Shown here piece after piece: positions 3,032 through 23,590 of a stretch of 32,602 bases of DNA; within the stretch, counting starts at the first letter, position 1; each line of letters begins with the position of its first letter. The notes under the pieces are model-generated. The model had not been told where the DNA came from. It saw nothing but the letters and a program-made list of their open reading frames with translations, and did no database searches. A program made the translations under genes and the position numbers. The DNA is taken from assembly GCA_021809885.1 (NCBI GenBank), contig JAJZJY010000005.1, positions 1 through 32,602 of the forward strand, written 5' to 3'. This stretch comes from Actinomycetes bacterium (GTDB taxonomy: Bacteria > Actinomycetota > Acidimicrobiia > Acidimicrobiales > Palsa-688).

Positions 3032-4240
3032 ATGCGGCAGGCCGTCATTTGCAACGCGGTTCGGACGCCGGTGGGCCGCATGGGTGGCGTCTTCCGCGAC
3101 CTTCCGGCGGCCACGTTTGGTGCCCTTGTGGTTCGGGCTGTGGTCGACCGCAGCGCTATCGCTGACGAAGCAGTGGACGACGCGATCCTCGGGCAGGGGT
3201 ACCCCAACGGGGAGGTGCCGTCGGTGGGTGGGGTCGCCGCTCTCGACGCCGGCCTCCCAGCCACAGTGCCGGGAATGCAGATGGACCGCCGCTGCGGCTC
3301 TGGGCTGCAAGCGGTGCTCCAAGCGGCCATGCAGGTGCAGACCGGGGTAAGCTACGTTGTGATCGTCGGCGGTGTAAAGAGGATGAGCCAGGTCGAGCAC
3401 TACGCCCCGGCACTGCGATGGGGTACGAGAGGAGAGGGCGTCGGTTTGCACGATCGTTTGGCGAGAGCTCGCGTCACTGCCGGAGAGATCCACCAGCCGG
3501 TCCCCGGCGGCATGATTGAAACGGCCAAACGGTTACGGGCCGACTACGGCAACAGTCGTGAGGAAGAGGACACCCTGGCCGTCGAGTCGCACCGCCGGGC
3601 GGTGTCGGCGCAGGACGCCGGGCGCTTCGCTGCAGAGATTGTGCCGGTGCCCGTTTGTACCCGGTCTGGCACGGAGATGGTCGATGCCGACGAGCATCCC
3701 GGCGAGACTGTACTCTACAGAAACTGGCTCGGTCGCGCCGGGCGCGCCATGTCGTCGATTTGTCGTCGACGGTCACGGCGGGCAACGGCATTGAGTAGCA
3801 CGACGCCAGCGCGGCTTGTATCGTTACCGACCCGAATTGTGCGGAGACTGCTGGTCTGCGGCCACTGGCTCGCCTGGTGTCGTGGGCGGTGGTCGGCGTC
3901 GAGCCGGGCCGGATGGGGCCTCGGACCGGTCCCAGCGACACAGGCAGCGCTGGGACGGGCCGGGTTGGCGATGGCAGACATGGACTTGATCGAGTTCAAC
4001 GAGGCGCTCGCTGCCCAGGTCCTGGCGCTCACGCGGGACTGGCGTTTCGGCAGCCACGACTTCGCCCGCATGAACGTGAACGGCTCGGGTATCTCGCTCG
4101 GGCACCCCTTCGGCGCGACGGGTGCCAGGATGCCGGCCACCATGCTGCACGAGATGGACCGTCTTCAGGCGCGCTATGGGCTGGAAACGATGTGCATCGG
4201 CGGTGGTCAAGGCCGGGCGGCCGTGTTCGAGCGAATTTGA
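3032..4240 (+). CDS. thiolase (acetyl-CoA C-acyltransferase family), centre apparently frame-shifted
   Basis: 402 residues from ATG 3032 (MRQAVICNAVRTPVGR, the typical thiolase start; the ORF track start at 2975 is too early). Thiolases split 3-oxoacyl-CoA with CoA to acyl-CoA plus acetyl-CoA, the last beta-oxidation step. The nucleophile Cys (DRRCGSGLQA), the His of NGSGISLGHPFGATGAR and the second Cys (MCIGGGQGR) are present and the overall length is normal. Bases about 3716-3920, however, encode an Arg/Ser-rich non-thiolase segment in this frame. The +2 shifted frame reads STVTAGN...GLRPLARLVSWAVVGVEP, conserved thiolase sequence, but with an in-frame TAG near 3796. Two compensating indels plus a stop imply a decayed gene or sequence errors. 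It is first in an operon with enoyl-CoA hydratase and 3-hydroxyacyl-CoA dehydrogenase, 11 bases ahead of the hydratase. Confidence 0.75.
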   Translation: MRQAVICNAVRTPVGRMGGVFRDLPAATFGALVVRAVVDRSAIADEAVDDAILGQGYPNGEVPSVGGVAALDAGLPATVPGMQMDRRCGSGLQAVLQAAMQVQTGVSYVVIVGGVKRMSQVEHYAPALRWGTRGEGVGLHDRLARARVTAGEIHQPVPGGMIETAKRLRADYGNSREEEDTLAVESHRRAVSAQDAGRFAAEIVPVPVCTRSGTEMVDADEHPGETVLYRNWLGRAGRAMSSICRRRSRRATALSSTTPARLVSLPTRIVRRLLVCGHWLAWCRGRWSASSRAGWGLGPVPATQAALGRAGLAMADMDLIEFNEALAAQVLALTRDWRFGSHDFARMNVNGSGISLGHPFGATGARMPATMLHEMDRLQARYGLETMCIGGGQGRAAVFERI

Positions 4241-4251
4241 CGGAGGTCTTG

Positions 4252-5001
4252 ATGGCCGAGGATGCAAGCTACAAGACCATCAAGGTCGACCATCACGGCA
4301 CCCATGTCCAGGTAACACTATGGCGTGCCGACGTGCGCAATGCCATCGATGCGGTGATGGTAGCCGAGCTGCACGATCTGTGCGCCCGCCTCGAGGACCG
4401 GCCGAGTGCGCTTATCGTCACCGGTGCCGGAACGGTGTTCGCCAGCGGAGCCGACCTGAGAGAAATGCGCGAGCGGGGTCGGGCCGACGCCCTGCGGGGG
4501 ATCAACAGCGGTCTCTTCGATCGCTTGGCCCATCTGCCGATGCCGACCGTAGCCGCAGTGAACGGGCCCGCCATCGGCGGTGGCGCGGAGCTGGCGTACG
4601 CGTGCGATTTCCGGGTGGCTTCGAGTTCGGCGCGCTTCGGCAACCCCGAGGTAAGCCTGGGCATCATGCCCGCTGCCGGGGCGTGTTGGCGGTTGCGCGA
4701 GTTAGTCGGTACCACCGTGGCGCGTGAGGTGCTCCTGGCCGGCCGGGTCCTCGACGCTGCCGACGCGCTGCGCACGGGGCTGGTCAGCTCGGTGGTCGAA
4801 CCTGATGATCTGATATCGGCGGCAGAGGAGCTGGTGGAGCGCATATCCCGCGGTGTACCGCTGGCTATCCAGCTCACCAAACTGGCCCTGGCGGCCCCGG
4901 CCGAAGCCCATCCCAGGTTCGACGACGTGGCGCAGGCTGTCTTGTTCGAGACTGAGGAGAAACGTTGGCGCATGACGGCATTCCTCGAGAGGAGAGCCTG
5001 A
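4252..5001 (+). CDS. enoyl-CoA hydratase/isomerase family protein
   Basis: 249 residues, the usual crotonase length. It would hydrate a trans-2-enoyl-CoA to the 3-hydroxyacyl-CoA. The first oxyanion-hole segment is TVFASGADLREM and the second is NGPAIGGGAELAYACDF. Glu 113 (GGGAEL) and Glu 133 (FGNPEV) are 20 residues apart and match the two catalytic glutamates of rat mitochondrial enoyl-CoA hydratase, so true hydratase activity is plausible. ATG 4252 has GGAGG at 4242-4246 with a 5-base spacer; the longer ORF in the track starts inside the thiolase. The gene follows thiolase by 11 bases and precedes a 3-hydroxyacyl-CoA dehydrogenase, a standard beta-oxidation set. Acyl-chain specificity cannot be told. 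Confidence 0.88.
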   Translation: MAEDASYKTIKVDHHGTHVQVTLWRADVRNAIDAVMVAELHDLCARLEDRPSALIVTGAGTVFASGADLREMRERGRADALRGINSGLFDRLAHLPMPTVAAVNGPAIGGGAELAYACDFRVASSSARFGNPEVSLGIMPAAGACWRLRELVGTTVAREVLLAGRVLDAADALRTGLVSSVVEPDDLISAAEELVERISRGVPLAIQLTKLALAAPAEAHPRFDDVAQAVLFETEEKRWRMTAFLERRA

Positions 5002-5030
5002 TGGAGGAGAGCATGGAGGTCCGGGCGTGA
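5001..5030 (+). other. 9-codon minigene bridging two genes (possible translational coupler)
   Basis: The stop of the enoyl-CoA hydratase (TGA 4999-5001) overlaps an ATG as TGATG. That ATG opens MEESMEVRA, whose stop TGA (5028-5030) overlaps the GTG start (5027) of the next gene as GTGA. A GGAGGT ribosome binding site (5015-5020) lies inside it. A ribosome could pass from one gene to the next through this mini-ORF. Whether it is translated is unknown. Confidence 0.3.
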
Positions 5031-5896
5031 CGGTCGGTGGTCGACCCAATGGTGCACCTGCGTCCGTCGGCGTCGTTGGCGCTGGGGCCATGGGCACCGG
5101 GATCGCCCATGCGTTTCTGGTGGCCGGCAGCCGGGTCGCACTGGTCGACGTGGGCGAAGACGTGCTGCCTCGCAGCGTGGAGCGGCTACGGACGCTGCTC
5201 CAGCAGACGCATTACCGTGGCCAGCTCGACGGCGCTCCGGACCAGGTGGAGCGCCGGTTGCAAGTGGGGACCGACTTGGCCGCCGTGGCCGCGAGCGCCC
5301 TTGTCGTGGAAGCGGTGCCCGAGGTGCCGGCGGTCAAGATAGGCGTGTTGGGAGCGGTCGAAGCAGTCGTGGCGGCCGATACCGTGCTGGCGACCAACAC
5401 GAGCAGCATCTCGGTAGGTGAGCTGGGCCAGGTGCTCGAACACCCGGAGCGATTTCTGGGCCTGCACTTCTTCAATCCCGTCCCGGCAAGTCTGATGGTG
5501 GAGGTGGTGGTGGGGCCGTGCACTGCGCCCGAGTTCCGGGACCGGGCCGTGACAAGTGTGCAACTGATCGGGAAGGAACCGGTGCTCGTTCGTGACGCGC
5601 CGGGCTTCGCCAGCAGCCGACTCGGTGTAATGCTCGGGCTGGAAGCGATTCGAATGGTCGAGGAGGGCGTCGCCACGCCGGAGGACATCGACAAGGCGAT
5701 GACGTTGGGATACAAGCATCCCATCGGGCCGCTCCACCTCACAGACCTGGTCGGTTTGGACGTGCGGCTTGCCATCGCCGATTACCTGTCCGTGGCACTG
5801 GGCCCGCGTTTCGCTCCTCCGACTCTCTTGCGGACCATGGTCGAGCAGGGATATGTGGGCCGGAAGTCGGGCAGGGGCTTCTTCTCGTATGAATGA
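5027..5896 (+). CDS. 3-hydroxyacyl-CoA dehydrogenase (3-hydroxybutyryl-CoA dehydrogenase type)
   Basis: 289 residues, the normal length of stand-alone Hbd/PaaH/FadB2 enzymes that oxidise (S)-3-hydroxyacyl-CoA to 3-oxoacyl-CoA with NAD. The N-terminal Rossmann fold shows GVVGAGAMGTGIA. The catalytic segment is ATNTSSISV followed by GLHFFNPVP (His ~147, Asn ~150). The C-terminal domain has APGFASSRLG, the variant common in actinobacterial members, then EAIRMVEEGVATPEDID and GRKSGRGFFSYE at the end. GTG 5027 is supported by GGAGGT at 5015-5020 with a 6-base spacer. It completes a hydratase-dehydrogenase-thiolase set with the two upstream genes. Confidence 0.9.
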   Translation: MTVGGRPNGAPASVGVVGAGAMGTGIAHAFLVAGSRVALVDVGEDVLPRSVERLRTLLQQTHYRGQLDGAPDQVERRLQVGTDLAAVAASALVVEAVPEVPAVKIGVLGAVEAVVAADTVLATNTSSISVGELGQVLEHPERFLGLHFFNPVPASLMVEVVVGPCTAPEFRDRAVTSVQLIGKEPVLVRDAPGFASSRLGVMLGLEAIRMVEEGVATPEDIDKAMTLGYKHPIGPLHLTDLVGLDVRLAIADYLSVALGPRFAPPTLLRTMVEQGYVGRKSGRGFFSYE

Positions 5897-6215
5897 TCCT
5901 CGACGTCGCGATGCCTGGGCGGTTATCGGCTCTCGGCTCGGGCACGATGTCCCGGTGCCAGCGCGGAGAGCGCTTTGGCGATCGCGTGGGTTCCAGAGCG
6001 ACCTCTTTGCAAATGGCGCGTCAGTCGGAAGCCTTGGTAGTCCCGCACATTCTGGGCGACCCGGAGGACGCAGAGGCCGGTCGCTCGAGACCCGACGCTG
6101 ACCGGCCCGATCCTGGGGCAATCTCGAGTCGAACAAGTGACAACTACATCATACGGTCAACCGAGCAACCGAAGGTCATTATGTTACTCTACTCAGAGAC
6201 GACGCGAGGAGGGAC
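5897..6215. other. intergenic region with an inverted repeat and tandem CAACCGA sequence
   Basis: No gene was recognised. GGCCGGTC (6075-6082) and GACCGGCC (6100-6107) form a perfect 8-bp inverted repeat with a 17-base loop; no T-run follows, so it could be a weak terminator or an operator. Bases 6130-6195 are AT-richer and hold CAACCGAG/CAACCGAA in tandem (about 6159-6174) and a possible -10 box TATGTT (6180-6185) without a clear -35. This probably contains the promoter of the SDR gene that starts at 6216. Confidence 0.4.
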
Positions 6216-6995
6216 GTGGGACGCCCGTTGGCAGAGCAGGTCGCCGTCGTGACGGGTTCGACTCGGGGCATCGGTCTGGCCATCGCTACCCGGTTGACCG
6301 AGCACGGTGTCACCGTGGTTGTGAACGGGCGCGACCCCGAACGGGTCGAGGTCGCTGTCCACGCCCTGGGTCGACGGGCATACGGCGTTCCCGCCGACGT
6401 CACGACGTTGGCAGGAACGGCGCGGCTGGCAGCGGAGGCCGCCCAACGGTTCGGGCGGGTCGACCTGCTGGTCAACAACGCCGGGATGGCACAGGCGAAG
6501 CCGACATTGGACGTGTCGATCGAGGAGTGGCAGACATGCCTGGACACGAACCTGACGGCGACGTTCCTGTGCTCACAGGCGTTCGGCCGGATCATGCTCG
6601 GGACGGCCGAGAAAGGAATCGCTGCAGGAGGGGCCATCGTCAACGTCTCCTCGATGGTCGGTGGGGTCACGGGATCGCCGATGCGTGCGGCCTATGCTGC
6701 GGCCAAAGCCGGTGTCGTAGCCCTGACGAAGGTGTTGGCGGCCGAATGGGGTCCCGCAATTCGATGTAATGCCGTTGCCCCAGGCTACGTGGAGACGGAC
6801 ATGACAGCGTTGCTCGACGCTGAGGGTCGGATCGATGTCGAGGCTATTGGGCGCAAGACACCGATGGGCCGGATGGCATTCCCATCGGAGATCGCCGACG
6901 CGGTCGTGCTCCTGGCATCGCCGGCGGCGGCATTCGTCACCGGCGCCACGCTGGTCGTAGACGGTGGCTTCATGGTGGGCGCGCCATGGGCGTGA
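6216..6995 (+). CDS. short-chain dehydrogenase/reductase (FabG-like)
   Basis: 259 residues, classical SDR. The cofactor motif TGSTRGIG lies near the N-terminus, NNAG near residue 90, the catalytic Ser is in NVSSMVGG, and Tyr/Lys are in YAAAKAG. The C-terminal ATFVTGATLVVDGG-type ending is represented by FVTGATLVVDGG. NGRDPE after the second strand places Arg where NADP(H)-preferring enzymes often have one, so NADP use is possible. It probably oxidises or reduces a hydroxyl/keto group of a catabolic intermediate; the substrate is unknown. GTG 6216 follows GAGGAGGG with only 2-3 bases of spacing, so the start is moderately certain. It is the first of four SDRs in the window and stands between the beta-oxidation genes and the GntR regulator. 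Confidence 0.87.
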   Translation: MGRPLAEQVAVVTGSTRGIGLAIATRLTEHGVTVVVNGRDPERVEVAVHALGRRAYGVPADVTTLAGTARLAAEAAQRFGRVDLLVNNAGMAQAKPTLDVSIEEWQTCLDTNLTATFLCSQAFGRIMLGTAEKGIAAGGAIVNVSSMVGGVTGSPMRAAYAAAKAGVVALTKVLAAEWGPAIRCNAVAPGYVETDMTALLDAEGRIDVEAIGRKTPMGRMAFPSEIADAVVLLASPAAAFVTGATLVVDGGFMVGAPWA

Positions 6996-7068
6996 GCCGG
7001 CGCCCGTGCACCAGGATGCGGGCGGCGCTGGCATGTCCCCACCGCGAGCCGCGGCGTACTGCTAGCGA

Positions 7069-7084
7069 GAGTCGATCGCGACTC
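7069..7084. promoter_or_regulatory. inverted repeat upstream of the GntR gene, possible operator
   Basis: GAGTCG-ATCG-CGACTC is a perfect 6-bp inverted repeat with a 4-base centre. It ends 7 bases before the AAAGGAG ribosome binding site of the GntR-type regulator, a common location for autoregulatory sites. I found no second clear copy in front of the other operons, so its role is a guess. Confidence 0.3.
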
Positions 7085-7106
7085 GTTGGCAAAGGAGCGA
7101 GGGTCC

Positions 7107-7934
7107 ATGGTTCGTGACGATGGTCGGCCGAACGCGGATCTGCGGGCGGACGGAAACAAAGTGGCGGCCAGCGTCATGACCGACGCGGGTTCCCCCGTCC
7201 CTCTCTACTACCAGGTCTTCGGCGTGCTCCGACAGCGGATGATCGACGGAGTTTACCCGCCCGGGCATCGGCTCGTCTCCGAGGACGAATTGGCCGCCGA
7301 GTTCGGGGTGAGCAGGGCCACCGTCCGCCAAGCGGTCGGCGAACTCGTCCGCGAAGGGGTGGTGAGCCGCCAACAGGGTCGTGGGACCTTCGTCAACGCC
7401 AGCGTGGCCCATTCGCTCGGCTTACGATTCCGTGGGTCGCTGCGGGACCTCATCAGTGAGACGACTCGGGCGGGGATCCTCAGGGTCGAGGTGCAGAGGG
7501 ATGCGCCGGTTCAGCAGCGAATCGCCGAAGCGCTGGGTCTCGAAGTACCGCGCGCCACTGTGGTGCGACGCACGCGGACGATGGACCACCGCCCGTTCGC
7601 GTATACCGTGAACCACCTGCCGCCGCCGCTCAACGATCTCATCAGCGAGAAGGAACTGAAGCGCGTCGGCATGATGACCCTGCTCGAGCAGAAGGGCATC
7701 GTGTTCGGTGGGGCGACCCAGTCGATCCGGGCACAACTCGCCGACGTTCAAGTCTCACGCGCTCTTGACGTCGAGTTCGGGGCACCGGTGCTCTTCGTCG
7801 AGCGGTTGCTGCTCAAGAAGGACGGCCAACCGTGCGAGTTCGTCCAATCCTGGTACCGGGGTGATATCTACGAGTTCAGGGTCCATCTTGACATCGTGGG
7901 GGACGTTCGCGACCTCCGGTCGCACCTGGCCTGA
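7107..7934 (+). CDS. GntR-family transcriptional regulator, HutC subfamily (UTRA domain)
   Basis: 275 residues. Residues ~27-95 are the winged helix-turn-helix: PLYYQVFGVLRQRM, LVSEDELAAEFGVSRATVRQAV and VSRQQGRGTFV, all typical of GntR proteins. Residues ~110-265 match the UTRA ligand-binding fold of the HutC/FarR subfamily (ALGLEVPRATVVRRTRTM, LLLKKDGQPCEFVQSWYRGDIYEF). Such regulators usually repress a catabolic operon and release DNA when they bind a pathway intermediate. ATG 7107 has AAAGGAG at 7091-7097 with a 9-base spacer, better than the TTG used in the ORF track. It is the only regulator in the window and sits between the beta-oxidation cluster and the seven-gene operon, so it is the leading candidate to control both. 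The ligand is unknown. Confidence 0.9.
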   Translation: MVRDDGRPNADLRADGNKVAASVMTDAGSPVPLYYQVFGVLRQRMIDGVYPPGHRLVSEDELAAEFGVSRATVRQAVGELVREGVVSRQQGRGTFVNASVAHSLGLRFRGSLRDLISETTRAGILRVEVQRDAPVQQRIAEALGLEVPRATVVRRTRTMDHRPFAYTVNHLPPPLNDLISEKELKRVGMMTLLEQKGIVFGGATQSIRAQLADVQVSRALDVEFGAPVLFVERLLLKKDGQPCEFVQSWYRGDIYEFRVHLDIVGDVRDLRSHLA

Positions 7935-9934: not shown

Positions 9935-11396
9935 ACCAGCGACGACCGATCGCCTGCACGCGTTCCGCATGGTCGTCGGTGGCGAGCGCCGGGCTGGGCG
10001 TGGCGAGCAATCGGTTCTTGTCGAACCCTGGTCTGGTCAGCCGTTCGCTACTGTCGAAATGGGCACGACCGACGACCTCGACGACGCGGTCTTCGCGGCA
10101 GCTGCCGCCTTTGATGGTTCCGGATGGGCGACGGGGCGTCCCCTGGACCGGGCGGCCGTCCTGGGCCAGGTTGCCTCCACGTTGCGCGCGCGTACGGAGG
10201 AGATCGGTGCACTCGAGGCCCGCAACGTCGGCCGTCCCTTGGCAGAGTGCCGTCACAATGTCGAATTGGCGGCAGATGCATTCGCCTACTTCGCCTCGTT
10301 GTCCACGCATTTGCGGGGTGCCAGCATTCCGATCGGATCGGGGTTGCTCGATTACTCGCTTCGGGAGCCGTACGGCGTTTGCGGCCTGATCACGCCGTGG
10401 AACAACCCGATCGTGCTCTCGTCATGGAAGATCGCTGCTGGCCTGGCGGCAGGGAACGCCCTGGTCGTCAAACCTGCCAGCGCCACACCGCTGTCGGTGC
10501 TCATCATGGCCGACCTGTTGGAAGAGGCCGGCTTACCCGGGGGCATACTCAACGTGGTCCCCGGCCCGGGCGGCCAGTTGGGTGACCACCTGGCGGCACA
10601 CCCAGGAGTTCGCAAGGTCAGTTTCACGGGTTCGACGGCCACGGGAATCCACGTGTTGCAGCGGGCTGCACCGAACCTTGCCAAGGTCTCGCTCGAGCTC
10701 GGTGGGAAGTCGCCGTCGCTGGTGTTCGCTGATGCAGAGATGGACGCAGCCATCTCCGGCTCGGTGCCCGCCATGTTCTCGAACGCGGGACAGATGTGCA
10801 CGGCCCGAAGCCGGATCCTGGTGCAGCGATCACGCTACGACGAGTTCCTCGATCGCTTCGTCGACCGAGTCGGGCAGCTCAAGATGGGTAGCCCCTTCGA
10901 TGACGCTGTGACGCTGGGCCCTCTGATCTCGCCCGCCCAGGTCGACACCGTGCTCCGGTTCATTGAACGGGCGAAGGCCGACGGGGCCCGGATCGTCTGC
11001 GGCGGAGGCCGCCCGTCGGACCCCATGCTGGCCGCGGGGAACTTCGTGGAGCCCACCGTGATCACCGGTGTCAAAGACGACATGGAGATCGTCACGGAGG
11101 AAGTGTTCGGTCCGGTGGTGGTCGTCGAGCAGTTCGATGACGAAGACGAGGTCGTCCGGCGCGTCAACGCATCGAGGTATGGCCTGGCCGCCACCGTGTG
11201 GACCAGGGACCTCGCGCTCGCTCACCGGGTGGCTGCCGTGCTCCAGGCGGGCACGGTGACCATCAACACCACGAAGGTGAGTCACGTGTACGCGCCATTC
11301 GGTGGCTACAAGCAGAGTGGGCTCGGGCGTGAGCTCGGGCTCGAAGGATTGGACGAGTTCTTGCAGGTCAAGAACGTCATCGTGAGCACAGTGTGA
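9924..11396 (+). CDS. aldehyde dehydrogenase family protein
   Basis: 490 residues, standard length for NAD(P)-dependent aldehyde dehydrogenases that oxidise an aldehyde to the acid. The oxyanion Asn is in PWNNP, the cofactor Lys in VVKPAS, the general-base Glu 258 in LELGGKSP, and the nucleophile Cys 292 in NAGQMCTARSR. PFGGYKQSGLGRELG is the usual C-terminal segment. ATG 9924 lies inside the end of the ThDP gene (11-base overlap), so the two are translated together; the earlier start in the ORF track is an upstream extension. It probably takes the aldehyde made by the ThDP enzyme, and its acid product would feed the acyl-CoA synthetase encoded next. Substrate not determined. Confidence 0.92.
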   Translation: MPNEPATTDRLHAFRMVVGGERRAGRGEQSVLVEPWSGQPFATVEMGTTDDLDDAVFAAAAAFDGSGWATGRPLDRAAVLGQVASTLRARTEEIGALEARNVGRPLAECRHNVELAADAFAYFASLSTHLRGASIPIGSGLLDYSLREPYGVCGLITPWNNPIVLSSWKIAAGLAAGNALVVKPASATPLSVLIMADLLEEAGLPGGILNVVPGPGGQLGDHLAAHPGVRKVSFTGSTATGIHVLQRAAPNLAKVSLELGGKSPSLVFADAEMDAAISGSVPAMFSNAGQMCTARSRILVQRSRYDEFLDRFVDRVGQLKMGSPFDDAVTLGPLISPAQVDTVLRFIERAKADGARIVCGGGRPSDPMLAAGNFVEPTVITGVKDDMEIVTEEVFGPVVVVEQFDDEDEVVRRVNASRYGLAATVWTRDLALAHRVAAVLQAGTVTINTTKVSHVYAPFGGYKQSGLGRELGLEGLDEFLQVKNVIVSTV

Positions 11397-13570
11397 TGGT
11401 TGGCAGCGCAAGTGGCGGTGGGGCCATTACCCGCACCGAGAGCAAGCGGCTCCGATCGCTGGCGCAGCAGCACCTGGCGTCGGGCACGACGAGTATGTCG
11501 GAGCACGAGGTCCGCCGATGGCTGGGGGAGGTCGTGCCCTTCGGGTCAGCGATCACGTGCCGGAATGCCCGAGAAGCGGGTGTGGCCGCCCGGTCTCTTG
11601 GCGGCCTTACCGTGGTAAAGCTTCTCTGTCCTGGGATACTCCACAAGTCGGACCTGGGATTCGTTCGCACTGGCCTGCAGTCGGCCGAAGACGTGGAGCA
11701 GGCGGCCTCGGAGCTTCTGCGGAGGGCGAGCGAGATGGGCTTGCCCGAGGCTGAGCTCAGCGTTCAGCAACAGTTGACGGGCGTCGAGATGGCAGTTGGC
11801 GTACGGCTCGATCCGCTCGGGGTGATCCTGATGGTGGCGGCCGGCGGCGAGCTGATCGAAGTGACGCAGGACCGGGCACTCGCAATGGCGCCGGTTGCCC
11901 TGGATGAGGCGATGGACCTCATCGCGCAACTGCGTGTAGCCCGGGTCCTCGGCGGCTACCGCGGACGTGCTCGGGTGGACAGCGAAGCATTGGCACGCCT
12001 GCTGATAGTGGTCGGCGAAGTGGCCACCGCCATCCCGGAGATCGCTGAGCTCGACATGAATCCAGTGTTCGTGAATGAGCGAGGCGCCTTCGTTGCCGAT
12101 GCTGTCTGTGTACTGGAGCCGGCAGCCCCCGAAGAGGAGGACGTCGAGTTTCCTGATCTGCACCGGCTGTTTGCACCAAGGCGCGTGGTAGTGGTCGGGG
12201 GGAGCAGCGACGAGCGGAAAGTCGGTGGGCGGATCCTGCGCTACCTGCGCCAAGGCGACTTTGGTGGCGAGATCCTCGTCGTCAACCCGAAGGCAATGGA
12301 CGCGGACGATGTTACAAGTGTCCCGAGCGTAGCTGACGTGCGTCGGCCGGTGGATTTGGCGTGCATCGCCGTGCCGGCGTCGGCCGTGGCCGCCGTGGTC
12401 CGGGAGTGCGCGTCGGCCGGTGTCTCCTACGCGATCGTCTATTCCTCGGGGTTCGCCGAAGCCGGTCCGCCGGGTGCAGAAGCGCAATCCCAGCTTGTCG
12501 ACACCGCGGGGAACGTCCGGATCATCGGGCCGAACACGATTGGGATCGCCGCGCCGAGCCGAAAGCTGTTCGCTACCTTCGGCATGGCGCTCGAGAGAGA
12601 CGGCTTGCTGTCCGGCCCCGTGGCACTGGTCTCCCAGAGTGGAGCCATCGCCAGCTCGCTGTTTAGCCGTACAGCTGACTTCGGCGTGGGACTCAGCCAC
12701 TGGATCAGCGTCGGGAACGAAGCCGACCTGGGGATCGAAGATTTCGTCGCTCACCTTGCCGATGATTCGAGCTGCGAGATCATCTGCCTCTTCATCGAGG
12801 GGATCCGGCGCCCCGCTGCGTTCGCCGCAGCGGTGGCCCGGGCCCACGACGCAGGGAAGCCGCTCATCGCTGTGAAGACGGGGCGCTCGGAGGCCGGTAG
12901 AAAGGCAGCAGCGTCTCACACAGGTGCGATGACCGGTGTGGACAGCAGCTACGACGCGTTCTTCCGCCGACACGGGATCATCCGCGTCGATGGGCTCCCG
13001 GACCTATTCGTGGCTGCCAAAGGAGTGATGACCCTCGGTCCGGTGACGGGCCAGCGTGTCGGCATCGTCTCAATGTCGGGCGGTGCATGCTCGTTGCTGG
13101 CCGACCGGTGTGTTGCTGCCGGGCTCGAGGTGCCGACCCTGGACGTGAAGGTGCAACAGGCTCTGCTCGGTGTGCTACCCGAGTTCAGCGCCGTGACCAA
13201 TCCCGTCGACGTGACGGCCGTCGGTGTTGAGCGCCCACACCTAGTGCGCGACGTGGTCGACGTCCTGCGCCGTAGCGGCGCTGTCGATCTCGTCTTGGTG
13301 CAACTCAGCACCAATGCCGACCCCGGGGCGGCAGCGATGGCTACCGACCTGGTGGAGCTCCATTCCCATCCAGGAGTGCCGTTCCTGGTAGCGCGGCTCG
13401 GCTCGCCCGCCCTTGCTCCGGAAGCGATGGGGATCTACGGCCGAGCCGGGATGCCAGTGTTCACCTGGCCCGAAGAGCTGGTCGTTGCAGCGAGCGCAGC
13501 GGTGCAGCACGGTTGCGTGCTATCCAAGCAGAAGGTGGCAGGGGAGGCCGAGCTGTGGACTTCCGCCTGA
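11396..13570 (+). CDS. NDP-forming acyl-CoA synthetase, beta-alpha domain order
   Basis: 724 residues. Residues ~35-240 are the ATP-grasp (beta) domain: VVKLLCPGILHKSDLGF and ELDMNPVFV. Residues ~255-380 are the CoA-binding Rossmann domain (VVVVGGSSDERKVGGRILRYL, IGPNTIGI). Residues ~405-700 form the ligase part (VALVSQSGAIASSLFSR) with the phospho-His 508 in SHTGAMTG. It makes an acyl-CoA from a free acid, ATP and CoA, releasing ADP and phosphate. Many fused family members have alpha first; here beta comes first. ATG 11396 overlaps the aldehyde dehydrogenase stop as TGATG; the track start is a GTG one codon earlier. It would activate the acid made by that enzyme. Substrate unknown. Confidence 0.88.
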   Translation: MVGSASGGGAITRTESKRLRSLAQQHLASGTTSMSEHEVRRWLGEVVPFGSAITCRNAREAGVAARSLGGLTVVKLLCPGILHKSDLGFVRTGLQSAEDVEQAASELLRRASEMGLPEAELSVQQQLTGVEMAVGVRLDPLGVILMVAAGGELIEVTQDRALAMAPVALDEAMDLIAQLRVARVLGGYRGRARVDSEALARLLIVVGEVATAIPEIAELDMNPVFVNERGAFVADAVCVLEPAAPEEEDVEFPDLHRLFAPRRVVVVGGSSDERKVGGRILRYLRQGDFGGEILVVNPKAMDADDVTSVPSVADVRRPVDLACIAVPASAVAAVVRECASAGVSYAIVYSSGFAEAGPPGAEAQSQLVDTAGNVRIIGPNTIGIAAPSRKLFATFGMALERDGLLSGPVALVSQSGAIASSLFSRTADFGVGLSHWISVGNEADLGIEDFVAHLADDSSCEIICLFIEGIRRPAAFAAAVARAHDAGKPLIAVKTGRSEAGRKAAASHTGAMTGVDSSYDAFFRRHGIIRVDGLPDLFVAAKGVMTLGPVTGQRVGIVSMSGGACSLLADRCVAAGLEVPTLDVKVQQALLGVLPEFSAVTNPVDVTAVGVERPHLVRDVVDVLRRSGAVDLVLVQLSTNADPGAAAMATDLVELHSHPGVPFLVARLGSPALAPEAMGIYGRAGMPVFTWPEELVVAASAAVQHGCVLSKQKVAGEAELWTSA

Positions 13571-17475: not shown

Positions 17476-18648
17476 GTGCGGCATGGAACGGCCCGGAATG
17501 CAGCGGCAGTGATCCCGACCCAAACGGACCGAGTGCGGGCCGAAGGAGCGCTTGACCGAGAGGTCGGGGAGTGCGGTCGACCAGCACGAGGCAGCTGGGT
17601 CGATCTCCGCTGGCGGGTGGGTCCGGTCGTGACTGCATGGGTCATCGCGGTGGTCTGGGTCGCGATCAGCATCGGCTTGTTCCCTCACTATCTGTCCTAC
17701 GCGTCGCGGTCGACCCTCACCCCGCTCATCGGGGTCTTGATCATCGCCGCCATCGGCCAGTCGTTCGTGATCGGTACGGGCGGTATCGACTTGAGCCCGG
17801 GTTCCGTGATCACCCTGTCGGGCCTGGCAGTCGGATTCATCGGGAACGGGCCAGGTGGTTCCCTGTGGCTCGGTCTGGTCGTCGCAATCCTGATCGGCGT
17901 CGGAGCGGGGGCGCTCAACGGTGTGCTGGTCGAGGTCCTGGGGCTGGACTCGATGGTGGCGACCCTCGCCACCTACGAGGGCATGCTCGGTCTGGCCACC
18001 GTGTGGACCAACTCTGCCGAAGGCACACCCAGCCCACAGGCGTGGAGCAACTTCCTCCTTCACAATTGGGACGGGTTCAGCATCGTGCTGGGCATGGCCG
18101 TCCTCCTCATGTTCGTTGTCGCGATGGTGATCGCCCACACGACCCCGGGGAGGCACCTGACAGCGGCGAGCGTCAGCTCCGTCGCCAGCTACTTCCAGGG
18201 CATTCACTACCGGCGGTACCGGTTCAGTGCCTACGTGTTCGGTGGTGTCGTCTATGCGTTCGCCGGGATCTGCCTCGTCGGCGTGGTGAGGACGCCGACG
18301 ACGGACATGGGGACCGTCTACCAGTTCGGGACCATCGTCGCTGTGATCCTGGGGGGAGCGTCACTGACTGGCGGCCGGCTCCATCCAGGCGCCACCGTTG
18401 CCGGGGCCGCATTCCTCATTGTCGTGGAGCAGGACATCTTAGCGTTCGGGTTGTCGACCGGCTTCCAGAACATCATCGAGGGCGTGATCATCGTGGGTGC
18501 GGTCGTGGCCATGGTGGGCGGCAGCGACAGCCCGATTCGACGATGGCGGACAAAGCGGTCACGTAGGGTCGGCGAGACAGACGGCGACGGCCGCGGGCTC
18601 CGCGCAGAGCATGGCCAGCTAGAGGGTAGCGAAGCACAGATCCAGTGA
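17476..18648 (+). CDS. RbsC-like ABC transporter permease
   Basis: 390 residues from GTG 17476. The first ~50 residues are polar, then come eight to ten hydrophobic segments typical of the ribose/autoinducer-2 permease family (BPD_transp_2). GTGGIDLSPGSVITLSG and ILGGASLTGGRLHPGATVAGA are the family signatures. A basic, polar tail of about 40 residues follows the last membrane segment. It would form half of the membrane pore for a sugar- or polyol-like substrate. The RBS is weak and the start uncertain; GTG codons near 17509 and 17616 are alternatives. The stop overlaps an upstream GTG of the binding-protein ORF. A second, different permease domain is fused to the ATPase at 20123. Confidence 0.88.
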   Translation: MRHGTARNAAAVIPTQTDRVRAEGALDREVGECGRPARGSWVDLRWRVGPVVTAWVIAVVWVAISIGLFPHYLSYASRSTLTPLIGVLIIAAIGQSFVIGTGGIDLSPGSVITLSGLAVGFIGNGPGGSLWLGLVVAILIGVGAGALNGVLVEVLGLDSMVATLATYEGMLGLATVWTNSAEGTPSPQAWSNFLLHNWDGFSIVLGMAVLLMFVVAMVIAHTTPGRHLTAASVSSVASYFQGIHYRRYRFSAYVFGGVVYAFAGICLVGVVRTPTTDMGTVYQFGTIVAVILGGASLTGGRLHPGATVAGAAFLIVVEQDILAFGLSTGFQNIIEGVIIVGAVVAMVGGSDSPIRRWRTKRSRRVGETDGDGRGLRAEHGQLEGSEAQIQ

Positions 18649-18671
18649 AGCGAGGAAAGGGATACGGTACC

Positions 18672-19997
18672 ATGGAGCAACCAAGTCAGCGACAGCCTCG
18701 GCGCGTGGCGCGCCGCATCTGGTGGCGGCCCATCGCCGTGTTGGCCGCGGCAGGAACACTGGTGGCGGCATGTGGGTCGACCAGTTCGTCATCGTCGGCC
18801 GTCAGGGCCAGCGGGTCGTCCAACGTGCTGTCCGGCGCGCCGAAGGCGACGGCGGCCGAGCAGTCTGCCATCCTGAAGCAGATCTACTGGGGAGGCCCCG
18901 TTCCCCCGGGCCTGTCGAAATACGTGGTCAACGGGATGGACCGACTGGCGGCAACAAAGTGGACGAGTGCGAAGGAGGCGCTGGCCGAACACTGTTTCAC
19001 GGCTGGGTCCTGCACAGTCGGTTCGGGCAAGGACACACTTGGCATCCTTTCCGCGGTCCCCCCGGACGGGTGGGTGGACATGGTCGAGATGTCGACGATC
19101 CTCGAGGCGTTGACGTACCCGCAGATCGGCAAGATCATCATCGACACCAACAATGCCGACATCAGCACGACGACGTCGCAGATTCACGCCATGATCTCTC
19201 AAGGGGTCACAGGCATCGTGTCGTTCGACGTGTTCGGTACTGCGGCGAAGGCCACGTATCAGGCGGCGACGTCCGCCGGGATCCCTGTCGTCCTCTACCA
19301 AGACATCATGGGCCCGTCGGGCAAAGGGGTCGTCGCATCGCAGGTGGCCGTCAGCTACTGCCAGCTTGGGCAGGCGCTCGCCCAGGGGGCTGCGAAGGCG
19401 CTCGGGAGCAAGGGCGGCAACGTGGCGCTCTACACTGGTGTCGCCGGTAACGCCCAAGCGTACGGATTCGGCGGCACCTCTCCCTTGGAGCGTGGTTGGC
19501 TCTCGTGTGCCAAGCAGTGGTTCGCACAGCACCAGCCGAACATTCACGCCGTGGACACGTCCCTCACCGATTGGACCGAGGGTGGTAACGTTTCGGCGAC
19601 CAGTGCCCTCATCTCCAGTGGCAAGAAGGTGAACGCCATCCTCTACGACGACGCCACCTTCACGACTGTCATCTCGACGTACCAGAATGCGCACCTGCCG
19701 GTTCCGGCCCTGATCGGATGGGGCCAAGAGAACGACGACGTCCAAGCCTGGATCGGGGCCAACAAGTCGTTCCCAATGGACTTCTCGAGTTACTACGGTG
19801 CGGTGGACGCCCCGGTGGCCGTGTCCGTGTTGATGGACAAGATTGGTGGCCAGTCCGTCCCGAACGAGGTGAACTTCCCGGTGGTCGAATACCCAGTAGC
19901 CGCGAATCTGTACAACTCAGCGTTAGCACCGCACACCCGGGTTCCGACAATCCCGGGGATGCCCTCTGCCGTCGTGAACTGGGTCTTCAGGCACTAG
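18672..19997 (+). CDS. sugar-type ABC transporter substrate-binding lipoprotein
   Basis: 441 residues. A twin-Arg-rich n-region, the hydrophobic stretch IAVLAAAGTL and lipobox LVAAC with Cys 34 indicate an outer-face lipoprotein. A Ser-rich linker follows. The body is a periplasmic-binding-protein type 1 fold like RbsB: DISTTTSQIHAMISQGVTGIV, AGIPVVLYQ, GKKVNAILYDDATF, LIGWGQENDDV. It would capture the substrate and deliver it to the membrane complex. It is longer than E. coli RbsB (about 296 residues), with an extra N-terminal region. ATG 18672 is preceded by AGGAAAGGG; GTG 18645, overlapping the permease stop, is an alternative. Ligand unknown. Confidence 0.88.
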   Translation: MEQPSQRQPRRVARRIWWRPIAVLAAAGTLVAACGSTSSSSSAVRASGSSNVLSGAPKATAAEQSAILKQIYWGGPVPPGLSKYVVNGMDRLAATKWTSAKEALAEHCFTAGSCTVGSGKDTLGILSAVPPDGWVDMVEMSTILEALTYPQIGKIIIDTNNADISTTTSQIHAMISQGVTGIVSFDVFGTAAKATYQAATSAGIPVVLYQDIMGPSGKGVVASQVAVSYCQLGQALAQGAAKALGSKGGNVALYTGVAGNAQAYGFGGTSPLERGWLSCAKQWFAQHQPNIHAVDTSLTDWTEGGNVSATSALISSGKKVNAILYDDATFTTVISTYQNAHLPVPALIGWGQENDDVQAWIGANKSFPMDFSSYYGAVDAPVAVSVLMDKIGGQSVPNEVNFPVVEYPVAANLYNSALAPHTRVPTIPGMPSAVVNWVFRH

Positions 19998-20019
19998 GGC
20001 CGGAAGGCGAATGAGTCGA

Positions 20020-20069
20020 GTGCTGGGGTGGAGTGGGTGTCGACCCGGGCGATTACTTCGCCCCAGTGC
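20020..20069 (+). promoter_or_regulatory. stem-loop between binding-protein and ATPase genes
   Basis: GTGCTGGGG (20020-20028) can pair with CCCCAGTGC (20061-20069), nine pairs including two G-U wobbles, with a 32-base loop. Such structures downstream of binding-protein genes often stabilise that part of the mRNA or reduce read-through, giving more binding protein than ATPase. No T-run follows. Confidence 0.3.
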
Positions 20070-20122
20070 CGACGGTCATTGCCGTGTGGCAGACGATAAG
20101 CGTGGCGGGGATGGAGAGGAGC

Positions 20123-22771
20123 ATGGTGGTTGACGAGGCAATGGGGGCACTCGACACAGCGTCACGCGCGAGCGGCGCGGCGGAGCCTGCGATGACTCCA
20201 GATGGGACCACAGACCGCCGGGTCGACGATCACCGTTGTGCCCTGGAGCTCAGGGGCGTCACCAAGGTCTTCGGCTCCACTGTGGCGCTTCGCAATGTGA
20301 GCTTGAAGTTCGGGGTTGGTACCGTTCACGGGTTGGTGGGCGAGAACGGCTCGGGCAAGTCCACACTGGTCAAGCTCGTGACCGGACTTCACGGCCCCGA
20401 TGCCGGAGCAATCACCAGCCCGATGCGTGCAGACCGTGTGCCGAGCCGGCGGGTAAGCGTCGGCAGTGTGTTTCAGGATGGCACGTTGATCGATGAGCTC
20501 ACCCTCGAGGAGAACATTCGGCTGATCGCCACGCGAACCGAGGGGGGCGCGCACAAGATTTCTGGGATCCTCAAGGCGCTCCGGTCCTACGGCATTCCCG
20601 TGGCAGGCCGGAGACCCGTGGCTGATCTCTCCAACAGCGTCAGGAGGGTCGCCGAGATCATCGCCGTCGCTTCGCTCGAGACGGATATCCTGCTGTTCGA
20701 CGAGGCGACCTCTGTCCTCGACGAGCGACAGGTCGCGGTCTTCGACGAGATCGTAAGGCTGGCCACCCGGCGCGGTGCGTGCGTCATCATCGTCAGTCAT
20801 CGGCTGCGGGAAGTGCTGGCAACATGTGACGACATCTCGGTGTTACGTGATGGTCAGGTGGTGTGGGCAGGTGCGAGTGACCAGGTGGACGAGCCGAAAC
20901 TCGTCGAGGCCATGGCCGGCCACGAAGTGGCGGCGTTCACCAAAGCATCCCGCGACGCGGCGGGCGACGACAGCGCTACGGCGCTGACGGCACGAGGCCT
21001 GTCCTTGGGTGATGCTGCTTTCGATGTCACCGTCCGGCGAGGAGAGATCGTCGGTATCGGGGGGCCGGCGGGTCACGGCCAGGGGGAACTGCTTCGGACG
21101 CTCGGCGGTGAGCGGTGCCACAGCGGCGCGAGCATGTTGTCCATCAGTGACCGGGTGGTGGGCAGCGTTCCCGAGGCATCGCGGGCCGGGGCTGTCATTG
21201 TCAGCTCGGACAGGCGGAGGGAGTCACTATTTCAGGGACTGTCCATCCGCGAGAATTACGGGCTGAGCCTCGTTGGGCGCATCGCCAGGAGATGGTGGAT
21301 CGTGCGCGCGGTCGAAGAGGCCCGGGTGCGGGCGCACACACGGGAGCACGGTTTGGCGTTCGGATCCATCGAGCAGCCGGCAGAGTCACTGTCGGGTGGG
21401 AACCAGCAGAAGCTGGCTATCGGCCGGGCGTTGGTACGGAGTCCGGCTGTGCTCCTGGTGGAAGCACCGACGGAGGGCGTGGACGTGCGCTCCCGCCTAG
21501 ACATCTACCGTCGGCTCGAGGAGGCAGCTGACAGCGGTGTCGCTGTGGCGTTCACGTCTACCGACGCCTCCGAACTGGCATCGCTGGCCGACCGGGTCTT
21601 GGTTATGGTCGACCGTCGCGTCGTGGCCGAGCTGAGCGGGGACGAGCTGAACGAGACGAACATCGTGCGCGCCTTTGCGAGCGCCATGAAGGAAAGCGGC
21701 GGCGGAGCCGAACGTGACCCTGCGCGCAGAGTGTCCGACGCGGCGAAAGCCGGCGGTCTGGCTGACTGGGTCCGCGCTCGACTGCTGTGGTCGAGGGGGG
21801 TGCACCGGTCGGAATTCGCCACCGTGGCGTTCCTTGCCGCCTTCCTGGTTCTGGTCTGGATTTATGGGACCGCGCAGCATTCGAGTTTCTTGTCGTCGCA
21901 CAATGTCGACGGCGTGTCGCTGGTGGCGGCGCCAATCATCTTCGGAGCGTTCGCCGAGTTCGTGGTGATCATGGTGGGCGAGATCGATATCTCTATTGCT
22001 GGGATGATGGGTCTGGTATTGGTCGTACTGTCTTTTGTCCCCGGGCAATCGTGGCCAGTGCTGCTGGTCCTTGCCCTCCTCATGGGCGTTGCGATGGGGG
22101 TGATCAACGGGCTGATCGTGATCGGGTCCGGAGCGAACGCCGTCATCATCACCATCGCCATGCTGAGCGTCTACGAGGGTATCGGCCTCTATCTTCGACC
22201 GAGCCCAGCAGGGAGCATCGCAACCGGCGCAGTGAGCATCGGAGAAGCCGCTGTTGCGAACATCGTGGTGTGGACCCTCGTGGCCGTGGCCATTGCCATC
22301 GTGGCCGACGTGGCCATCCGACGAAGCAAATGGGGCCTGAAGCTCCGCGCCGTCGGCTTCGACCGGGACCGTGCCCAACGTTTGGGCGTCGTCAGCGTTC
22401 GGGTTCGGCTCGGAGCGTTCGCCCTGAGCGGCGCGTTTGCCGGCTGGGCTGGCTTCCTGCTGGCTGCTCAGACAGGCACGGGAGACGCCACAGTCGGCTC
22501 GTCGTACCTGCTGATCGCCATTGCCGTCCCCGTCATCGGGGGTGCCTCGTTACTAGGCGGCCGAGGCACCATGATCGGGTGTGTTATGGCGGGAGTCATT
22601 CTGGCGAGCATTGAGAGTGTGGTCTCCTTCGCCAACCTGCCGAACGGCTACTACCTGGTGGCTGTTGGCGTGCTGACGCTGTTGGCGTTGGCCATCAGCC
22701 TGACGCGTCGCCGCAGCGGGCGACGAAGGGAGTACGGAGAGGTTCAGGCCAGGACACCAGGGGAGGCCTGA
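20123..22771 (+). CDS. fused ABC transporter: tandem ATPase (RbsA-like) plus permease (RbsC-like)
   Basis: 882 residues. NBD1 (~42-255): Walker A GENGSGKST, Q-loop VFQDG, signature LSNSV (degenerate), Walker B LLFDEA, H-loop VSHR. NBD2 (~288-515): degenerate Walker A GPAGHGQGE, intact signature LSGGNQQK, Walker B LLVEAPT where the usual DEPT is EAPT. A polar linker (~520-560) leads to an RbsC-type permease (~560-865) with MVGEIDISIAGMMG and IGGASLLGGRGTMIG. RbsA and RbsC are normally separate proteins of about 500 and 320 residues, so this is a gene fusion. It pairs with the separate permease at 17476 and the lipoprotein. ATG 20123 follows GGAGAGGAG; ATG 20111 and GTG 20126 are alternatives. 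The likely role is ATP-driven import of a sugar- or polyol-like compound. Confidence 0.9.
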   Translation: MVVDEAMGALDTASRASGAAEPAMTPDGTTDRRVDDHRCALELRGVTKVFGSTVALRNVSLKFGVGTVHGLVGENGSGKSTLVKLVTGLHGPDAGAITSPMRADRVPSRRVSVGSVFQDGTLIDELTLEENIRLIATRTEGGAHKISGILKALRSYGIPVAGRRPVADLSNSVRRVAEIIAVASLETDILLFDEATSVLDERQVAVFDEIVRLATRRGACVIIVSHRLREVLATCDDISVLRDGQVVWAGASDQVDEPKLVEAMAGHEVAAFTKASRDAAGDDSATALTARGLSLGDAAFDVTVRRGEIVGIGGPAGHGQGELLRTLGGERCHSGASMLSISDRVVGSVPEASRAGAVIVSSDRRRESLFQGLSIRENYGLSLVGRIARRWWIVRAVEEARVRAHTREHGLAFGSIEQPAESLSGGNQQKLAIGRALVRSPAVLLVEAPTEGVDVRSRLDIYRRLEEAADSGVAVAFTSTDASELASLADRVLVMVDRRVVAELSGDELNETNIVRAFASAMKESGGGAERDPARRVSDAAKAGGLADWVRARLLWSRGVHRSEFATVAFLAAFLVLVWIYGTAQHSSFLSSHNVDGVSLVAAPIIFGAFAEFVVIMVGEIDISIAGMMGLVLVVLSFVPGQSWPVLLVLALLMGVAMGVINGLIVIGSGANAVIITIAMLSVYEGIGLYLRPSPAGSIATGAVSIGEAAVANIVVWTLVAVAIAIVADVAIRRSKWGLKLRAVGFDRDRAQRLGVVSVRVRLGAFALSGAFAGWAGFLLAAQTGTGDATVGSSYLLIAIAVPVIGGASLLGGRGTMIGCVMAGVILASIESVVSFANLPNGYYLVAVGVLTLLALAISLTRRRSGRRREYGEVQARTPGEA

Positions 22772-22777
22772 TTACCA

Positions 22778-23590
22778 GTGGAGGCAACGCAAGACAGTCC
22801 TAGGTCGGTGGCACGAGGTGGTCAGCGCAGCGATCGATCAGGGCCGCCGGGGTGGGGCATCTCCGGTGTGGCGGTTGTGACCGGGGCGGCTCGGGGCAAC
22901 GGTGCGGCTATAGCCCGTGGGCTGGGCCAACGGGGGGCGCACGTGATCCTGGCGGATATCGACGTGGATCAGGTGAACGAGCAGGTACGCCTACTGGCCG
23001 AAGAGGGGCTCTATGTGGAATCGGTTGTCGTCGACGTGGGTGACCCGGACTCGGTGGAGGCGCTCGCTGCTGCAGCCGAACCGCACGGGCCGATAGCCGC
23101 TTGGGTGAACAACGCCGGGGTCATCCGGCGTTCAGATCTGTTGGACATAACGGTTGCAGAGTGGGACTACATCCTGGCTGTGAACGCCAGGGCTGCTTTC
23201 CTCGGCACCCAGGCGGCGGCAAGGCGGATGACCGCAGGCGGAGCCATCGTGAACGTGGCCAGCATCTCCTCGCGGGTCGCACTCCCACGGACGGCGCACT
23301 ATGGAGCGGCGAAGGGGGCTGTAGCACTCTTCACACGTCACGCGGCGCTCGAGCTGGCTCCCCGAGGTATCCGGGTGAATGCGGTGGCGCCGGGCACCAT
23401 CGCCACGGCCATGACCGAGGATCGGCTGGCGGACCCGCGCCAGCTTGAGGCGTCTCTCCGGCGCATCCCGCTCGGTCGGGTGGGCGTCCCGGAGGACGTT
23501 GCCGGCCCGGTCGGGTTCCTGTGCAGCGCCGAGGCCGCGTATGTGACCGGGGCAATCCTCTACGTTGACGGTGGATACACGGCCACCTAG
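22778..23590 (+). CDS. short-chain dehydrogenase/reductase
   Basis: 270 residues with a polar N-terminal extension of about 28 residues. The cofactor motif is TGAARGNG, with Asn in place of the usual Ile, followed by LADIDVD (Asp, NAD preference), NNAG, catalytic Ser in VASISSRV and YGAAKGA. YVTGAILYVDGGY ends the fold. GTG 22778 follows GGGGAGG with a 10-base spacer and lies 6 bases after the transporter stop, so it is probably co-transcribed with the importer. This suggests it acts early, on the imported compound, for instance by oxidising a hydroxyl. Substrate unknown. Bases 23591-23783 after it hold no recognised gene. Confidence 0.87.
   Translation: MEATQDSPRSVARGGQRSDRSGPPGWGISGVAVVTGAARGNGAAIARGLGQRGAHVILADIDVDQVNEQVRLLAEEGLYVESVVVDVGDPDSVEALAAAAEPHGPIAAWVNNAGVIRRSDLLDITVAEWDYILAVNARAAFLGTQAAARRMTAGGAIVNVASISSRVALPRTAHYGAAKGAVALFTRHAALELAPRGIRVNAVAPGTIATAMTEDRLADPRQLEASLRRIPLGRVGVPEDVAGPVGFLCSAEAAYVTGAILYVDGGYTAT

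Follow-up and report, generated by a model that had tools for sequence, protein, structure and literature searches.

Importers of the RbsABC / CUT2 sugar type (RbsA, AraG, XylG, MglA, LsrA) combine a tandem ATPase in which the second ATPase domain (NBD) is degenerate, a BPD_transp_2 permease (TMD), and a Peripla_BP_4 substrate-binding protein (SBP), with the ATPase and the permease made as separate chains. In Bacillus subtilis RbsAC2B and NupNOPQ, one tandem ATPase works with two permeases; the second ATP site is degenerate in both RbsA and NupO, and degeneracy of one site is the rule across the CUT2 family (PMC11466899). NupNOPQ-type nucleoside importers join one tandem ATPase to two different permeases, NupP and NupQ, again with all components on separate chains. 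The locus described here lies in a window of 32,602 nucleotides (the whole stretch of DNA that was analysed) and shares the degenerate second NBD, the BPD_transp_2 permease, and the Peripla_BP_4 protein with these systems, but its tandem ATPase and one permease form a single chain, encoded by the gene at 20123-22771. No publication on an ATPase-permease fusion in the CUT2 family was found in the open-access literature that we searched.

The closest annotated locus is on plasmid NZ_CP020716.1 of Cnuibacter physcomitrellae. Its RefSeq protein WP_085021823.1 (871 aa) is likewise an NBD-NBD-TMD fusion, 36% identical to the 20123-22771 product over the matched part, and the surrounding genes have the same order of permease, SBP, fusion, and SDR as at 17476-23590, with an LLM F420-dependent oxidoreductase nearby as in our window. 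The two proteins differ in Walker B of NBD2, which is canonical in Cnuibacter (IDEPT) and reads VEAPT in the 20123-22771 product. A Thioclava sp. protein of the same fused lineage (XBA79638.1, plasmid CP155823.1, positions 3951-7493 of locus L076), with a binding protein gene just upstream, carries both permeases and both ATPases in a TMD-NBD-NBD-TMD chain of 1180 aa, i.e. a single-chain importer core.

A tandem ATPase and a permease in one open frame

The frame of the fusion gene is open without a break from ATG 20123 to the stop codon at 22769-22771 (Table 1). This ATG is preceded by AGGAGC, a good ribosome-binding site; an upstream in-frame GTG at 20033 would lengthen the protein by 30 residues but has a poorer ribosome-binding site. 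Pfam searches of the 882-aa chain identified two ABC_tran domains (1.3e-36) and a BPD_transp_2 domain (4.6e-24) spanning model positions 3-269 of 269, hence a complete permease, while residues 1 to ~500 aligned full-length with the NCBIfam models of AraG/YtfR/RbsA tandem ATPases (E down to 2e-81). Given the open frame, the two ABC_tran domains and BPD_transp_2, the linker between them, and the even coding composition, the sequence-only reading was correct in placing an RbsA-type tandem ATPase and an RbsC-type permease in one protein.

A tandem RbsA-type ATPase, a BPD_transp_2 permease, a Peripla_BP_4 gene in the operon, and a degenerate second ATP site are all found here, and are the features that define the CUT2 family. 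Our main reading, to which we assign a probability of roughly 0.87, is that the 20123-22771 product would be the energising chain of a binding-protein-dependent CUT2 (ribose/galactose type) ABC importer, in which the tandem ATPase is joined C-terminally to one of two permease subunits.

Table 1 Features of the fusion operon, with positions in the window
Feature	Position	Strand	Basis
Standalone partner permease (BPD_transp_2, 1.4e-24), in the "partner" permease clade	17476..18648	+	Pfam, tree
Lipoprotein substrate-binding protein (Peripla_BP_4, 1.2e-21; lipobox LVAAC)	18672..19997	+	Pfam
Fusion protein, 882 aa: tandem NBD (RbsA-type) and permease (RbsC-type)	20123..22771	+	ORF, Pfam
Tandem NBD region, residues 41-515	20243..21667	+	Pfam, motifs
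Linker from NBD2 to permease domain, 59 residues; holds GTG 21800	21668..21844	+	Domain borders
Permease domain (BPD_transp_2), in the "fused" permease clade	21845..22690	+	Pfam, tree
SDR dehydrogenase, 6 nt downstream of the fusion	22778..23590	+	Pfam/NCBIfam

The junction between ATPase and permease

GC3 stays at 0.70-0.85 along the whole ORF and is 0.74 over the NBD-permease junction, so that the junction reads as coding. More than 20 homologues are likewise open across it, which makes a missed stop or frameshift at this point very unlikely and bears out the earlier claim of a continuous frame; the linkers of these homologues are mostly 38-67 aa long, and 118-125 aa in one separate lineage. 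Two adjacent genes joined by an assembly or sequencing error might still be suspected in a fragmented draft genome (894 contigs, 81% complete), the more so as the two genes are apart in many relatives, some of which have only one stop codon separating them in a shared frame. However, the fusion recurs across two phyla, in many genomes and on complete plasmids, and the coding composition is uniform over the junction. On the grounds of this recurrence and composition we rejected an artefact or frameshift, which we consider next to impossible. At three other loci (L004, L024, and L035), the ATPase and permease genes lie in the same frame one stop codon apart, i.e. one mutation short of a fusion.

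A further question is whether the gene could yield a separate free permease in addition to the fusion through an internal start, which had earlier been deemed unnecessary. GTG 21800, the only start-like codon in the linker with a Shine-Dalgarno (SD) match, albeit a weak one, sits where a permease could plausibly begin, 3 nt after a GAGG, and in the unfused sister G018:C33 the split falls within this linker region, the two genes overlapping at ATGA. Yet the spacing from SD to start is short at GTG 21800, about 10 homologues have no SD-matched start codon in the linker at all, and the gene for a partner permease close by would make a free copy superfluous. Since SD-matched linker starts are absent from those members, translating the permease on its own is not something that the homologues have in common. 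In this one gene, GTG 21800 is a weak candidate internal start; production of both forms seems improbable to us, and a single fused product remains the preferred reading.

Distribution and origins of the fused architecture

The search for the same domain architecture elsewhere, suggested by the sequence-only reading, was productive. The source genome itself contains a second fused operon (G000:C165), whose fusion is 33% identical to the 20123-22771 product. This second fusion (L031, 8247-10919) has its own partner permease at 10858-12024 and sits on a long branch in the tree. The NBD-NBD-TMD chain also occurs in at least ten other genomes (G029, G005, G316, G317, G199, G223, G087, G082, G633, and G665), related to the source genome at the level of family, order, or phylum, and on annotated plasmids of Cnuibacter, Rhodococcus ruber, Mesorhizobium, Sinorhizobium, Loktanella, Rhizobium, and Aminobacter. 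The RefSeq plasmid fusions, from Actinomycetota and Alphaproteobacteria, are 841-871 aa long and named only "ATP-binding cassette domain-containing protein". Its presence in a second operon, in other genomes, and on annotated plasmids shows that the fusion is not an assembly artefact. The fused architecture is widespread and already deposited, and 20123-22771 is a further member of a fused CUT2 lineage; the view that RbsA and RbsC are normally separate is right for classic CUT2 systems, but fusion is not unusual. A scan of genome contigs with the fusion protein alone as query gave one match only, an unfused distant relative (Williamsia), and PDB sequence searches gave, among the matches listed, only generic ABC ATPases, and none for the permease domain.

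In a tree of 57 permease domains, those belonging to main-lineage fusions made up a single clade (support 100) that also took in the unfused G018 sister. The partner permeases formed a separate clade (support 97), which also included the N-terminal domain of the Thioclava chain, and the 17476-18648 permease grouped with the Cnuibacter partner (support 97). In the NBD tree, 16 fused proteins and the unfused sister G018:C33 (17 rows) fell on one side of a branch with support 100/99, and the NBD part of the 20123-22771 product lay inside this main fused (Cnuibacter-type) clade. At least L003, L039/L040, and RLEG (L078) were placed outside it. That all fusions go back to one event was also considered and rejected, the AU test excluding a one-clade constraint with p about 1e-6. 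The NBD tree branch and this rejection suggest one main old fusion and at least three others, namely G005:C13, the G006/G020 pair, and a rhamnose-type Rhizobium protein, with the unfused G018:C33 probably representing a later split of a fused gene; because the NBD tree was rooted by midpoint, we infer rather than observe the direction of these changes. The G006/G020 pair (G006:C26 and G020:C129; 3488-6385 of L039 and 3637-6633 of L040) is an independent ATPase-permease fusion with linkers of 118-125 aa, and from its NBD motifs looks like a member of the nucleoside-importer (NupO-like) branch.

A probable partner permease and a single predicted ATP site

The operon runs in the order permease, binding protein, fusion, and SDR. 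Wherever the flanking sequence is long enough, one standalone permease adjoins the fusion, its gene lying upstream of that for the SBP or else downstream of the fusion gene, the exception being Thioclava; the G029 locus is truncated by the edge of its contig. Since a partner permease adjoins the fusions (and is N-terminal in Thioclava), and since fused and partner permeases fall into two clades, we propose that the fusion, the partner permease, and the lipoprotein binding protein, in one copy each, would assemble into a complex of 2 NBD, 2 TMD, and 1 SBP. Judging from gene content and trees, the second permease half of the transporter very likely comes from gene 17476-18648, giving a 2 NBD / 2 TMD heterodimer. 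The fusion does not fix ATPase and permease at 1:1, as had been proposed: the chain itself is 2 NBD to 1 TMD, and is balanced only with the partner permease.

A homodimer of the fusion (4 NBD, 2 TMD), with the standalone permease serving another system, would be in line with CUT2 systems in which a single permease gene homodimerises, such as B. subtilis RbsAC2B (PMC11466899). Against this, the partner permease invariably lies next to the fusion and has a clade of its own, and Thioclava carries it within the same chain. We regard such a homodimer as very improbable, and to our knowledge there is no precedent for four NBDs on two TMDs. The heterodimer is the reading that we retain, and the locus is a complete three-gene importer rather than an odd single fusion.

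In tandem ABC ATPases, the two NBDs are usually arranged as a head-to-tail sandwich. NBD1 of the fusion retains Walker A (GENGSGKST), Walker B with its Glu (FDEAT), and the switch His (SHR), and has a degenerate signature (LSNSVRR). The signature of NBD2 is canonical and intact (LSGGNQQK), its Walker A lacks the Lys (GPAGHGQGELL), and its Walker B lacks the catalytic Glu (VEAPT), a loss that in our motif table goes one step beyond most fused relatives. Because the Walker motifs are kept in NBD1 and the signature in NBD2, a head-to-tail sandwich would have one competent and one dead site, with ATP predicted to be hydrolysed only where Walker A/B of NBD1 meet the signature of NBD2.

Gene neighbourhood and candidate substrates

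The fusion stayed well short of all the named substrate equivalog cut-offs in NCBIfam, the best being AraG (273.8 vs 689 bits), and RbsA stood at 254.8 bits against a cut-off of 745. The operon is surrounded by genes for a thiolase, crotonases, 3-hydroxyacyl-CoA dehydrogenase, acyl-CoA dehydrogenase, CoA-transferases, MaoC, and several SDRs, as well as an F420-type luciferase-like (LLM) oxidoreductase and an OYE/dienoyl-CoA-reductase-like enzyme. CoA-thioester catabolism genes extend over ~29 kb (2975-31946), including 3HCDH, a TPP enzyme, and an aldehyde dehydrogenase, with a GntR/UTRA regulator inside this stretch at 7086-7934; at the edge of the cluster (56-1837, + strand) is an AroKB-type fusion of shikimate kinase to 3-dehydroquinate synthase (SKI + DHQ_synthase). 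The label "ribose-type" given to the transporter is therefore apt for the fold family but not for the substrate, for which no equivalog cut-off was reached and CoA-ester and SDR genes are the neighbours.

Because this neighbourhood is one of CoA-ester catabolism, the substrate is probably not ribose. The imported substrate would be a small catabolic compound degraded via the neighbouring CoA-thioester and SDR enzymes, and a non-sugar catabolic substrate is our best guess, though a weakly inferred one. Fused loci mostly occur with aromatic or CoA catabolism genes, and maleylacetate reductase, dioxygenase, EthD, P450, and similar genes are found beside the fused relatives. An unfused CUT2 operon also adjoins aromatic catabolism genes, so gene context alone does not define the substrate. 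As a lead only, a CUT2 cluster of Rhodococcus, with its binding protein gene followed by those for the ATPase and the permease, is reported to take part in phthalate-ester use (PMC13188901).

Implications for the CUT2 family

For 17476-22771, the main gain is a corrected annotation as a three-gene importer. On a broader and more tentative view, which we hold to be possible but somewhat short of an even chance, the fused lineage would be an undescribed CUT2 subfamily that was fused essentially once, is common to Actinomycetota and Alphaproteobacteria, works as an obligate heterodimer of fusion and partner permease with one hydrolytic ATP site, has exchanged sugars for substrates that are aromatic, alicyclic, or otherwise degraded via CoA, and has reached a fully single-chain core in Thioclava. 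The covalent ATPase-permease link fixes which of two permeases pairs with which ATPase, which makes the fused lineage well suited, as a natural system, to studying the coupling of ATP to transport in importers with one active site. It is also useful for asking whether "sugar" importers carry non-sugar catabolic substrates.
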